From contig CANGJJ010000009.1 of NCBI GenBank assembly GCA_947454485.1, positions 1 to 64,000 on the forward strand: DNA of 64,000 nucleotides. Direction: 5' to 3'. Position numbers and translations under genes: made by a program. Below the pieces are notes generated by a model, which saw nothing but the letters and a program-made list of their open reading frames with translations, searched no databases and was not told the origin of the DNA. Below, one piece after another: positions 48,199 through 51,802 of the stretch (its first letter is position 1; each line of letters begins with the position of its first letter). Source of the DNA: Beijerinckiaceae bacterium. Its GTDB lineage: Bacteria; Pseudomonadota; Alphaproteobacteria; Rhizobiales; Beijerinckiaceae.

Positions 48199-49203
48199 TT
48201 AGGCCGAGAGAAGCGCGCGGGCCTGATCGATCCAGCCATCGCGAGCAATGCGGCCATTGAGCTTCAACGAAGCATCAACCTTGGCAACATCGTCAGCGGT
48301 CATCGCAGCGAACTGCCAATAGTGGAAGATGCCAGCATCATTGAGCTTCTTGACGAGCTGGGGACCAATGCCGGTCAGCTTGGCCAGATCATCGGGTGCG
48401 CCGCGCGGAGCGGTGAGCAGCTCAAAAGCGCCCTCAGCCGCAGCAACCGGAGCTGCATCGAGAGCTGCCTCAACGGGAGCTTCAGACGCGCCGATATCCA
48501 TGCCGGACGAACCCTGCGAACGCGAGATACCATCAAGCGCAGCGCGAGCAATGAGGTCGCAATAGAGCGCAATCGCGCGGCCAGCGTCGTCATTCGCGGG
48601 AACCGGGAACTGGATGCCATCGGGATCGCAGTTGGTGTCGACAATCGCAGCCACCGGAATGTTGAGGCGGTTGGCCTCCTTAATGGCGAGCTGTTCTTTG
48701 TTGGTGTCGATCACGAAGATCAGGTCGGGCGTGCCGCCCATGTCCTTGATACCGCCGAGCGCCTTCTCGAGCTTGTCGCGCTCACGCGACATCATCAGGC
48801 GCTCTTTCTTGGTGAGGCCAACGCCGCCCGAATTCAGCTGCTCGTCGAGCTTGCGCAGACGCTGGATCGAACCAGAGATGGTCTTCCAGTTGGTCAGCAT
48901 GCCGCCGAGCCAACGCGAATTGATGTAATACTGAGCCGAGCGCTTGGCAGCATCAGCAATCGCGTCAGCAGCCTGACGCTTGGTGCCAACGAACAGAACG
49001 CGACCGCCCTTGGCAACCGTGTCCGACACGACCTTCAAAGCCTGGTGCAGCATGGGCACAGTCTGGGCGAGGTCGATGATGTGGATGTTGTTGCGGGTGC
49101 CGAAAATATACTGGCCCATCTTGGGGTTCCAGCGGTGAGCCTGATGGCCGAAGTGGGCGCCGGCCTCAAGAAGGCCACGCATGTTGAAATCAGGAAGTGC
49201 CAT
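48199..49203 (-). CDS. rpsB: 30S ribosomal protein S2 with C-terminal helix-hairpin-helix extension
   Basis: 334 residues from the ATG at 49203. The track start at 49356 passes through the leader. The S2 core ([74 protein letters not shown]) ends near residue 230. An alanine-rich linker leads to residues 270-334: [61 protein letters not shown], a helix-hairpin-helix-like domain seen in extended alphaproteobacterial S2 and L21. Its role on the ribosome is not settled. Confidence 0.97.
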
Positions 49204-49340
49204 TGTCGTTCTTCTCCGGTTGAACCTCGGCGGAGCCTGTTGCGGGAAAACCCGCACCGGAGCGCTACTTGAAGCAGCAGCGCGACACTCCGCCTGTGGA
49301 ATGGTCGCGTACTTAGAGCAAAAGCGCCGCCCTGGCAAGC

Positions 49341-49370
49341 AAAAGGCCCCGGACAAGCTGCCGGGGCCTC
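49341..49370 (-). terminator. Terminator after the methyltransferase-like gene
   Basis: On the minus strand AGGCCCCGG, eight-base loop, CCGGGGCCT, then TTT. A perfect nine-pair stem 20 bases beyond the stop at 49390, and upstream of rpsB. Confidence 0.8.
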
Positions 49371-49389: not shown

Positions 49390-49974
49390 TCAAGCGGTCT
49401 TGCGATAGACCAGCAAGGTCTCAAACATACCCACTTTCTCGACCCCGCCAGCCTTCTCCCACTGGGCAATGACCCCTTCGGCCGTATTGAAGGCGAAGCT
49501 CTTGGTATAAAACAGCACATAGCCCCCGACCCGGGTCTTGCGGGTCAGCATTTCCAGCACTTCCAAATCGGTCAGCGCGCCATATTCGTCATTCCGCTCG
49601 TTGCGGAATTCGCACAAATGGAACAGCGTCACGACATCAAAGCCGGGCAGGAGCCGCTCTTCCAGCTGATAAATATCGCCAAAGACCGCCTTGTAGATCT
49701 TCTCGACCTCGGGGCGCTCAATCGCCAGCTTGACGAAAGTGTCATATTCGCCGGGGCTTGCCGTAATGCCGAGGACGCAATTGTTGCGGCCTGACTCTGC
49801 TGCATGCAGGCCCACAATGTGATGGGTGCCGGTGCCAAAGTGAAAAATCGCGGCGTTCGAAATATTCGCCTTGTCCGTCCACTGGTTAAAGTGGGCATCG
49901 CAAGGACAGACATCGAGATGCAGATCCCACACCGCATCCCAGAAGTGCAATTTACCCTTCGTCGCCTCGACCAT
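49390..49974 (-). CDS. Class I SAM-methyltransferase-like conserved protein
   Basis: 194 residues from the ATG at 49974, which has GGAGAGGAC upstream. The track start at 50070 lies well inside the ABC gene. A Rossmann-like layout is suggested by NAAIFHFGTGTHHIVGLHAAES (variant SAM loop FGTGTHH), VFGDIYQLEERLLPGFDVVTLFHLCEF (post-motif II and acidic strand) and GGYVLFYTKSFAF. HFWDAVWDLHLDVCPC near the start is distinctive. It overlaps the end of the degenerate ABC gene by 23 bases, so the two are translationally coupled. Substrate unknown. Confidence 0.65.
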   Translation of the reverse strand: MVEATKGKLHFWDAVWDLHLDVCPCDAHFNQWTDKANISNAAIFHFGTGTHHIVGLHAAESGRNNCVLGITASPGEYDTFVKLAIERPEVEKIYKAVFGDIYQLEERLLPGFDVVTLFHLCEFRNERNDEYGALTDLEVLEMLTRKTRVGGYVLFYTKSFAFNTAEGVIAQWEKAGGVEKVGMFETLLVYRKTA

Positions 49975-51802
49975 TGTCCTCTCCGGCGGCCACTTGCATT
50001 GTGTTGGCAGGCTGGGCCAAGCCCTGCTCTGCCAGTGAAGCAGCTTCTGCGCCGTGACGCACCAACTCAAAATGACGATTGTGGAGCGGCACGAGACCCG
50101 CAGCGCCCCCCACAGTGATGATCACAGCCTTGGGAAGCAGCTGTGTCAGAGTCTCAAAAAAGTTGATTTGTGCAGGCTGGTCGAAGGCCGACAAACCACC
50201 TTCAATCATCAAGATTTCCGGGCAAGAACACAGAACTTGCACAAGCGCCAAACGCTGCCGGTCATGAGGAGCGAGCGCCTGATCCCAACGTCCTTTTTCA
50301 TCCAATCGGGAGACGAAAGCAGAGGCTCCAAAGGCCTGTAACGCGCTGATCACAACTTCGTCAGAACGCCGCTCAGGCAGCGCCATGGAGAGCAAAGCAT
50401 CGCGCAACCGCCCTGCTGGAAGGAAAGGTTGGGCCGACAAGAACCCAATGCGCGCATTGACGGGCAGCAGCACCCCGCCTGAACCCCACTGCCAAATGCC
50501 AGCAATGGCGCGCAGCAAAGAGGTTTTGCCAGTGCCTGCATCACCGCTCAGCCAAATGCGATCACCGGGCGCAAATTTGGCATCAGCATGCCCAACCACA
50601 AGACGTCCGCTCGCATCGGTGAGGCGAAGATTCGCCAGATGAACAAGACCATCATCGCTGACACCGCGCGCAATCGCGGGTGCATCGCCGCCGCATTCAG
50701 CGTCCGTCTCATCATAAGCATCGATCAGCTCAACAACACGGCGGGCCGAGGCATACCATTCAGCAATGCGCCAATAATTATCAACGAGCCAGCTGATCGC
50801 GATCTGCACCTGAAAGAAGGCTGAGGCCAGTTGCACCACTTCTCCCAGCGACAAATCGCCAGACAGATATTTCGGTGTTGCCAGCAACAATGGCACAACG
50901 GGGATCAGCGCCGTATTGGCATTCATCACCCAAGTCACATTGCCATGCTGGCGCACAACATGGAGCCAATCAGCGACAAGTCCGCGATAGGTGCGCTCCA
51001 ATCGCGCGCGCGCGCTGGGCTCGGCATGGGACAGAACGACAGCTTCTGCATTTTCGCGCAGATGAATCATCTCAAAGCGAAAACGGGCCTCAGCTTCGTT
51101 CTTGGCCGCAGCCGCACCTGCAAGCTGACGCCCGGCAATTGGCACCAATGAAGAGGCAACAACGCCATAGACAAGGGCGCCAATCACCATGAAAGCGGGA
51201 ACGGTGAGATCAACGCTGCCAATAGTGACATTCAGCGAGCCACCCACGCTCCACAAAATGCCAACGAAGGTTGAGGCCGAAAGCAATGCGGTGAAAAGAC
51301 CAATGGCGAAATCCACCAAAGGCTCAGTTGCCATGCGCACATCATCGGAGATGCGATATTCGGGATTGGGCATGCCCTGCGCCGACAGGCCCATGCGATA
51401 GAAGCGCTGACGCGCTAGCCAGCTGTCGAGCAAACGCGCGGTGATCCATTCACGCCAGCGCACTTGCAACGTCTCGCGCGTTCGCACAATGCCAACGCCC
51501 ACAGCCGCAATCCCGACCACCAAAATCGGAAAAGCGATACCCGCCACCAACAAAGTCGAGCCGTCGCGATTTTCCAGCGCATCAAAGAACCAGCGGTTCC
51601 AGCTATTGGTGGCGACATCAACGATGAGTTTGAGAACAAGGAAGCCAGCCAGACCAAAGGTCAGCAACCAGGCCATGCGACCTGACGGACCGGACCAAAA
51701 GCCCGCCGCAAAACGATTGAAGCGATTGACTGTGGCGCGATCAATGACGCCGGGAGACGTCAGCGCCTCTTGCGGCGGAATATCACTCATGCGCGCAGCC
51801 AA
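49952..51802 (-). CDS. SbmA/YddA-type ABC transporter with degenerate ATPase motifs
   Basis: 616 residues, a fused membrane domain plus nucleotide-binding domain. The membrane half (40-345) contains WNRWFFDALENRD and RWREWITARLLDSWL, signatures of the SbmA/BacA and YddA/ABCD group. The ATPase half keeps a Walker A (GDAGTGKTS, 420-428). Other motifs are broken: the signature LSxGE is LAPHD (510-514), the Walker B Asp is Glu534, the catalytic Glu is Gly535, and the switch His is Gly566 (compare YddA VGHRS with VGGAA). ATP may bind but hydrolysis looks unlikely. Its partner or cargo is unknown. It is coupled to the downstream methyltransferase-like gene. Confidence 0.88.
   Translation of the reverse strand: MAARMSDIPPQEALTSPGVIDRATVNRFNRFAAGFWSGPSGRMAWLLTFGLAGFLVLKLIVDVATNSWNRWFFDALENRDGSTLLVAGIAFPILVVGIAAVGVGIVRTRETLQVRWREWITARLLDSWLARQRFYRMGLSAQGMPNPEYRISDDVRMATEPLVDFAIGLFTALLSASTFVGILWSVGGSLNVTIGSVDLTVPAFMVIGALVYGVVASSLVPIAGRQLAGAAAAKNEAEARFRFEMIHLRENAEAVVLSHAEPSARARLERTYRGLVADWLHVVRQHGNVTWVMNANTALIPVVPLLLATPKYLSGDLSLGEVVQLASAFFQVQIAISWLVDNYWRIAEWYASARRVVELIDAYDETDAECGGDAPAIARGVSDDGLVHLANLRLTDASGRLVVGHADAKFAPGDRIWLSGDAGTGKTSLLRAIAGIWQWGSGGVLLPVNARIGFLSAQPFLPAGRLRDALLSMALPERRSDEVVISALQAFGASAFVSRLDEKGRWDQALAPHDRQRLALVQVLCSCPEILMIEGGLSAFDQPAQINFFETLTQLLPKAVIITVGGAAGLVPLHNRHFELVRHGAEAASLAEQGLAQPANTMQVAAGEDNGRGDEG

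Follow-up and report, generated by a model that had tools for sequence, protein, structure and literature searches.

What drives, and what preserves, an ABC half-transporter whose nucleotide-binding domain (NBD) keeps its Walker A motif and lacks the residues of ATP hydrolysis? The question is raised by a locus within a 64,000-nucleotide stretch of a Beijerinckiaceae genome (contig CANGJJ010000009.1, positions 1 to 64,000; hereafter the window), in which a first-pass annotation, made from the sequence alone, had described an SbmA/YddA-type protein with a probably dead ATPase beside a methyltransferase-like gene and had proposed a non-hydrolysing role such as an ATP-gated channel, a sensor or a pseudo-transporter.

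The transporter gene and its nucleotide-binding domain

The open reading frame at 49952-51802 was confirmed on the minus strand and encodes 616 amino acids.

49952..51802, minus strand: ABC half-transporter of 616 amino acids, putative pseudo-ATPase; TTG start, with an in-frame ATG four codons on
50690..51682, minus strand: transmembrane domain (TMD), residues about 41-371 (ABC_membrane_2 / SbmA_BacA)
50051..50647, minus strand: NBD, residues about 386-584, with an intact fold in the predicted model

The protein is an SbmA/BclA/Rv1819c-like half-transporter with Pfam matches to ABC_membrane_2 (6.9e-30), SbmA_BacA (1.9e-12) and ABC_tran (2.2e-6), and it has the fusion of an ABC_membrane_2-type TMD to an NBD that characterises BclA, Rv1819c and YddA-type half-transporters. 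Its best PDB match by sequence and by fold is Rv1819c of M. tuberculosis (6tqe; phmmer 1.1e-54, Foldseek 1.6e-24). Structure prediction, which had been suggested as a check, gave an AF2 model of moderate overall confidence (mean pLDDT 83; weak near residues 186-205 and at the two termini), in which the NBD is well ordered (pLDDT mostly 86-97); the domain thus looks folded, not ruined.

The window protein was aligned with about 110 relatives and with Rv1819c (6tqe), and the NBD motifs were located as follows.

50522..50545, minus strand: intact Walker A, GDAGTGKT, residues 420-427
50432..50434, minus strand: Ala457, replacing the Q-loop Gln
50261..50275, minus strand: LAPHD, residues 510-514, replacing the LSGGE signature
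50198..50203, minus strand: Glu534-Gly535, replacing the Walker B Asp and the catalytic Glu
50105..50107, minus strand: Gly566, replacing the switch His

Among the motifs of a working ATPase, Walker A (GxxGxGK[ST]) is therefore present, and the signature LSGGE/Q, the Walker B Asp with the catalytic Glu, and the switch His are absent. The alignment bore out every residue assigned by hand in the first-pass annotation (GDAGTGKT, LAPHD, Glu534, Gly535 and Gly566) and added a fifth motif loss missing from it, that of the Q-loop Gln. Misalignment was considered and rejected: the motif columns are gap-free against 39 canonical relatives and no register shift places canonical motifs elsewhere. With the switch His and the catalytic Glu lost, little or no hydrolysis is predicted; with Walker A kept, nucleotide binding may persist.

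Motif loss across the clade

We compared the motifs of 39 canonical relatives, a set selected on the switch His alone among the motifs, with those of 39 full-length members of the clade described below. The canonical proteins are uniform at all eight positions (Q, S, G, G, E, D, E and H in 39/39). The suggestion that orthologues might share the four changes first noted held for the switch His, which is absent from all 39 clade members, but not for the catalytic Glu, kept in 8 and lost in 31, nor for the signature Ser, kept in 30. The Q-loop Gln is found in 13 of the 39, the Walker A Lys in 38, and either Asp or Glu occupies the Walker B Asp position in every one. These losses are not due to chance, since all canonical proteins carry every motif residue and no clade member carries the switch His. 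The window protein stands near the extreme of degeneration, and relatives show steps towards it (e.g. LSASERQR / ILEDALS / VVGG); slow hydrolysis may be possible in the eight members with the catalytic Glu. Nearly all copies from a genus of another family (L166-L177) read ILDGATSALD / SVGL in an otherwise well-kept NBD.

Several further observations concern natural variation at these motifs. The catalytic Glu is naturally Gly in the genus just mentioned (Ser in one copy), the change that was used to inactivate Rv1819c: engineered E576G is reported as inactivating (PMC12713380), and Gly stands at the equivalent position in the window protein and in most copies from that genus. One clade member with an open frame (L037:1288-3270) has lost Walker A too. 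A separate change of the switch His to Arg was seen in the canonical group (L123 and L126), at loci without the methyltransferase-like gene.

Phylogeny and loss of the nucleotide-binding domain

Orthologues were drawn from 149 family genomes, from genome contigs, from 298 order genomes by way of the methyltransferase-like gene and from fetched stretches; three truncated matches (L086, L098 and L099) were excluded as contig ends. The TMD tree of 83 rows contains one alphaproteobacterial clade of 47 rows (support 100/99) made up of 39 degenerate and 8 NBD-less proteins, with no canonical member. The tree has no named BclA or ExsE reference; its outgroup rows, BclA-like only by PF05992 match, are set off by a long branch. 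SbmA/BacA form a separate branch (100/100, length 3.85) far outside the clade, and the assignment of the NBD-less relatives to SbmA/BacA was accordingly rejected.

Among the NBD-less proteins, which end cleanly just after TM6, L084 and the full-length L068 are sisters (100/100), a second group (L089 and L092-L096) is placed with the degenerate L128 (99/92), and L091 sits on a long branch with unsure placement. No separate, split-off NBD gene was found next to the NBD-less members at the loci inspected; the only NBD matches near NBD-less genes were ORFs several kb away at L221 and L224, both outside the clade, and one of these resembles an ordinary ABC ATPase. Further NBD-less TMD proteins were noted outside the clade (L100, L202, L214 and L221), three of them adjoining the methyltransferase-like gene (two divergently transcribed). 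L202, L214 and L221 fall on long branches outside the clade and are therefore not counted among its NBD losses.

Parsimony requires two changes of the switch His overall, one on the clade stem and one in the unrelated L123, six changes of the catalytic Glu over the whole tree, and four changes of NBD presence within the clade, so that the domain was lost up to four times. As reconstructed from these sequences, the ancestor of the clade had already lost the switch His, and the losses of the catalytic Glu, signature and Q-loop came later in various lineages; the four separate losses once taken as special to the window gene are not so. By the same reconstruction, NBD loss in the clade is a case apart from that of SbmA/BacA.

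The TMD itself has a clade-specific residue.

51473..51475, minus strand: Glu110, acidic, close to where TM2 ends on the cytoplasmic side; Met or Leu in canonical relatives

Glu110, seven residues ahead of the conserved RWR, is present in 45 of the 47 clade rows, including all eight NBD-less ones; in 20 canonical rows the position is Met (17) or Leu (3) and never Glu (0/20). Its gain maps to the same clade stem as the loss of the switch His. Glu110 is a candidate compensating change, and its role could also be structural. The gain of an SbmA-style glutamate ladder was considered and rejected, as E203 and E287 correspond to Val163 and Arg249 in the window protein. In the absence of both equivalents a proton mechanism would have to differ from that of SbmA, and a copy of the SbmA mechanism in the clade is not supported by these residues.

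Selection on the two domains

Nei-Gojobori estimates of omega, obtained from pairs that are not independent, gave NBD medians of 0.19-0.42 in the degenerate groups against 0.18-0.21 for the TMD. The NBD/TMD divergence ratio was 1.4-2.2 in degenerate groups and 0.9-1.3 in canonical groups, and the NBD/TMD omega ratio was also high (1.76) in one canonical group. Across Alphaproteobacteria, the 39 distinct full-length members all have open frames, and many TMD residues are invariant. The NBD is under relaxed but purifying selection and is not neutral; given the non-independent pairs and the high-ratio canonical group, the selection estimates serve as supporting evidence only. The view of this protein as a probably dead ATPase with an intact frame beside a methyltransferase-like gene is thus upheld by clade-wide motif loss, open frames, NBD omega well below 1 and a conserved gene pair.

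The methyltransferase-fold partner gene

49390..49974, minus strand: methyltransferase-fold protein of 194 amino acids, conserved partner gene; its start overlaps the end of the ABC gene

In almost all full-length clade loci where the contig reaches far enough, and in several NBD-less loci, the partner is the next gene downstream, on the same strand and at a spacing of -18 to +131 bases (a listing that contains duplicate loci); it follows the ABC gene in none of 47 canonical loci. A search of the 298 order genomes with the partner alone yielded 18 further genomes, 15 of them with an ABC gene directly upstream. All 15 of these ABC proteins are His-less and 14 are without the catalytic Glu as aligned, L163 being the one that keeps it. 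Within the family the partner is present in 36 of 149 genomes, among them all 24 with a degenerate or NBD-less relative (by cross-reading of listings; G075 is outside the strict clade). It occurs without a clade transporter in 12 of the 125 other family genomes (a divergent NBD-less protein is present in two of them), so action of the enzyme does not require the clade transporter. Four genomes (G019, G059, G094 and G117) have both an NBD-less gene and the partner, unlinked, and the neighbours of lone partner genes are varied. Beyond the order the partner was found in 4 of 385 class genomes and 3 of 299 phylum genomes (the window genome counted), confined to the window's class. Because the clade is one lineage, the association is largely a single evolutionary event and not many independent ones.

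A constant wider neighbourhood around the pair was not found, crude neighbour clustering giving mostly antisense ORFs; among the loci compared, recJ adjoins the pair in the window only. The rpsB ORF (ribosomal protein S2) at window positions 48199-49356 bears a C-terminal helix-hairpin-helix-like extension. At another locus (L046:7498-9288) the partner gene is followed immediately by a second ABC gene of the SbmA/YddA-like kind, whose product shows the opposite defect, its Walker A being destroyed (TTPQAAEA) and its switch His and catalytic Glu kept.

The partner is predicted to share the Rossmann fold of class I SAM-dependent methyltransferases (AF2 pLDDT 93.9; Foldseek E about 1e-8, TM about 0.6). 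It differs from them in belonging to no Pfam or NCBIfam family, sequence and family searches having given nothing useful, and in its invariant residues, which comprise a CPCD motif, Cys23, Cys25, Asp26, His45, His51-His52, His119 and Glu122. His45 and Thr71 occupy the positions that we take to be those where SAM-binding acidic residues usually stand. The protein possibly has a metal site or is a pseudo-methyltransferase.

Proposed mechanism

We favour, with a probability of about 0.58, a transporter with a pseudo-ATPase NBD that works independently of hydrolysis, is en route from primary to secondary transport and is tied to the methyltransferase-like protein. A stem lineage of presumably homodimeric SbmA/BclA-type transporters would have lost the switch His, and with it probably efficient hydrolysis, and gained Glu110; the catalytic Glu, Q-loop and signature would then have eroded to differing degrees, and some lineages would have deleted the NBD. 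Transport would be driven otherwise than by ATP hydrolysis, most likely by an ion or proton gradient or by the substrate's own gradient, and the substrate may be a small hydrophilic compound or a peptide, possibly one that the methyltransferase-like enzyme produces or modifies. Where the NBD is retained it could act as an ATP-binding clamp or a structural scaffold. We infer the energy source, the substrate, the direction of transport and the role of the partner alike. Transport driven otherwise, with a vestigial or regulatory NBD, is the most economical mechanism. The fuller proposition, that a primary-to-secondary transition is in progress in which ion coupling followed a single loss of the switch His with gain of Glu110, the still-attached NBD became dispensable and decays or is deleted, the whole arose independently of SbmA/BacA and it serves the partner enzyme's product or substrate, is put forward tentatively, with the odds somewhat against it.

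Alternative explanations

Retention of the Walker A Lys in 38 of 39 members while the hydrolytic residues vary, together with the sound modelled fold of the NBD and the conserved partner gene, would suit an ATP-gated channel, a sensor or a pseudo-transporter, in which bound but unhydrolysed ATP would switch the TMD or send a signal to the partner. The NBD evolves faster than the TMD, however, and up to four deletions have removed it while the TMD, Glu110 and co-occurrence with the same partner persist. Repeated deletion indicates that the NBD is not needed for the shared function, and so speaks against a core role in ATP gating as well as against any heterodimer that depends on the NBD; gating is thus not essential to any function held in common. 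An ATP-gated channel or sensor is possible but weakened by the NBD losses; not specifically supported, it appears unlikely to us, and the first interpretation of the locus is, overall, partly supported.

Alternatively, the protein might be the degenerate subunit of a heterodimer in which a canonical half-transporter supplies the sole working site, as for TAP1 or TM287, both of which are known for such degenerate-site changes. The E to D and H to Q changes common in the clade resemble those at degenerate sites (PMC7756269), and the window genome holds a canonical YddA-like paralogue (L002, at G000:C1). That paralogue is only about 30% identical, though, and similar canonical copies are widespread, also in genomes without the clade gene; no adjacent half-transporter partner was found within the window, the partner's good site would need the signature of the window protein, which is LAPHD, and some clade members are without any NBD. 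We regard a heterodimer as decidedly improbable.

That the protein is a true, if slow, ATP-driven transporter whose catalytic residues are unusual could be argued from the catalytic Glu in 8 of 39 members and the Asp or Glu at the Walker B position in all 39. The window gene, with Gly at the catalytic position and four other losses, makes this a poor prospect, as does the inactivation of Rv1819c by the equivalent E576G (PMC12713380). A decaying pseudogene, although in line with the relaxed constraint on the NBD, is very hard to reconcile with 39 open frames, TMD omega of about 0.2, NBD omega of 0.2-0.4 and many invariant TMD residues.

Comparison with known systems

The hydrolysis-independent transporter that we favour would belong to a clade that provides a graded series: canonical outgroups, then His-less, Glu-less and five-motif-dead proteins, and finally NBD-less ones. 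With its candidate compensating residue and conserved partner gene, the series allows the conversion of primary into secondary pumps to be studied by direct comparison within one gene family. No description of a fused degenerate intermediate was found in the literature searched, which is weak evidence of novelty given the many subscription papers outside its coverage.

SbmA is the NBD-less, proton-driven precedent (PMC13316013), and SbmA/BacA have been proposed to descend from YddA/BclA-like ABC transporters by NBD loss, with split or orphan NBDs also reported (PMC13316013, PMC12003926). The TMD of these proton-driven SLiPT-family proteins is homologous to that of the clade, whose NBD-less members share their simple layout; SbmA/BacA differ in their separate branch, and the window protein is without the E203/E287 ladder and retains its NBD. 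Rv1819c and BclA, the BacA-like importers with fused TMD and NBD, have the same architecture and fold as the window protein, but their NBD motifs are functional and Rv1819c depends on hydrolysis, whereas the motifs of the clade are not kept. In TAP, TM287/288 and CFTR the catalytic Glu and the switch His are likewise lost from an NBD that keeps Walker A; there one site is canonical, whereas for the clade no adjacent canonical partner was found and the NBDs are dispensable in relatives.
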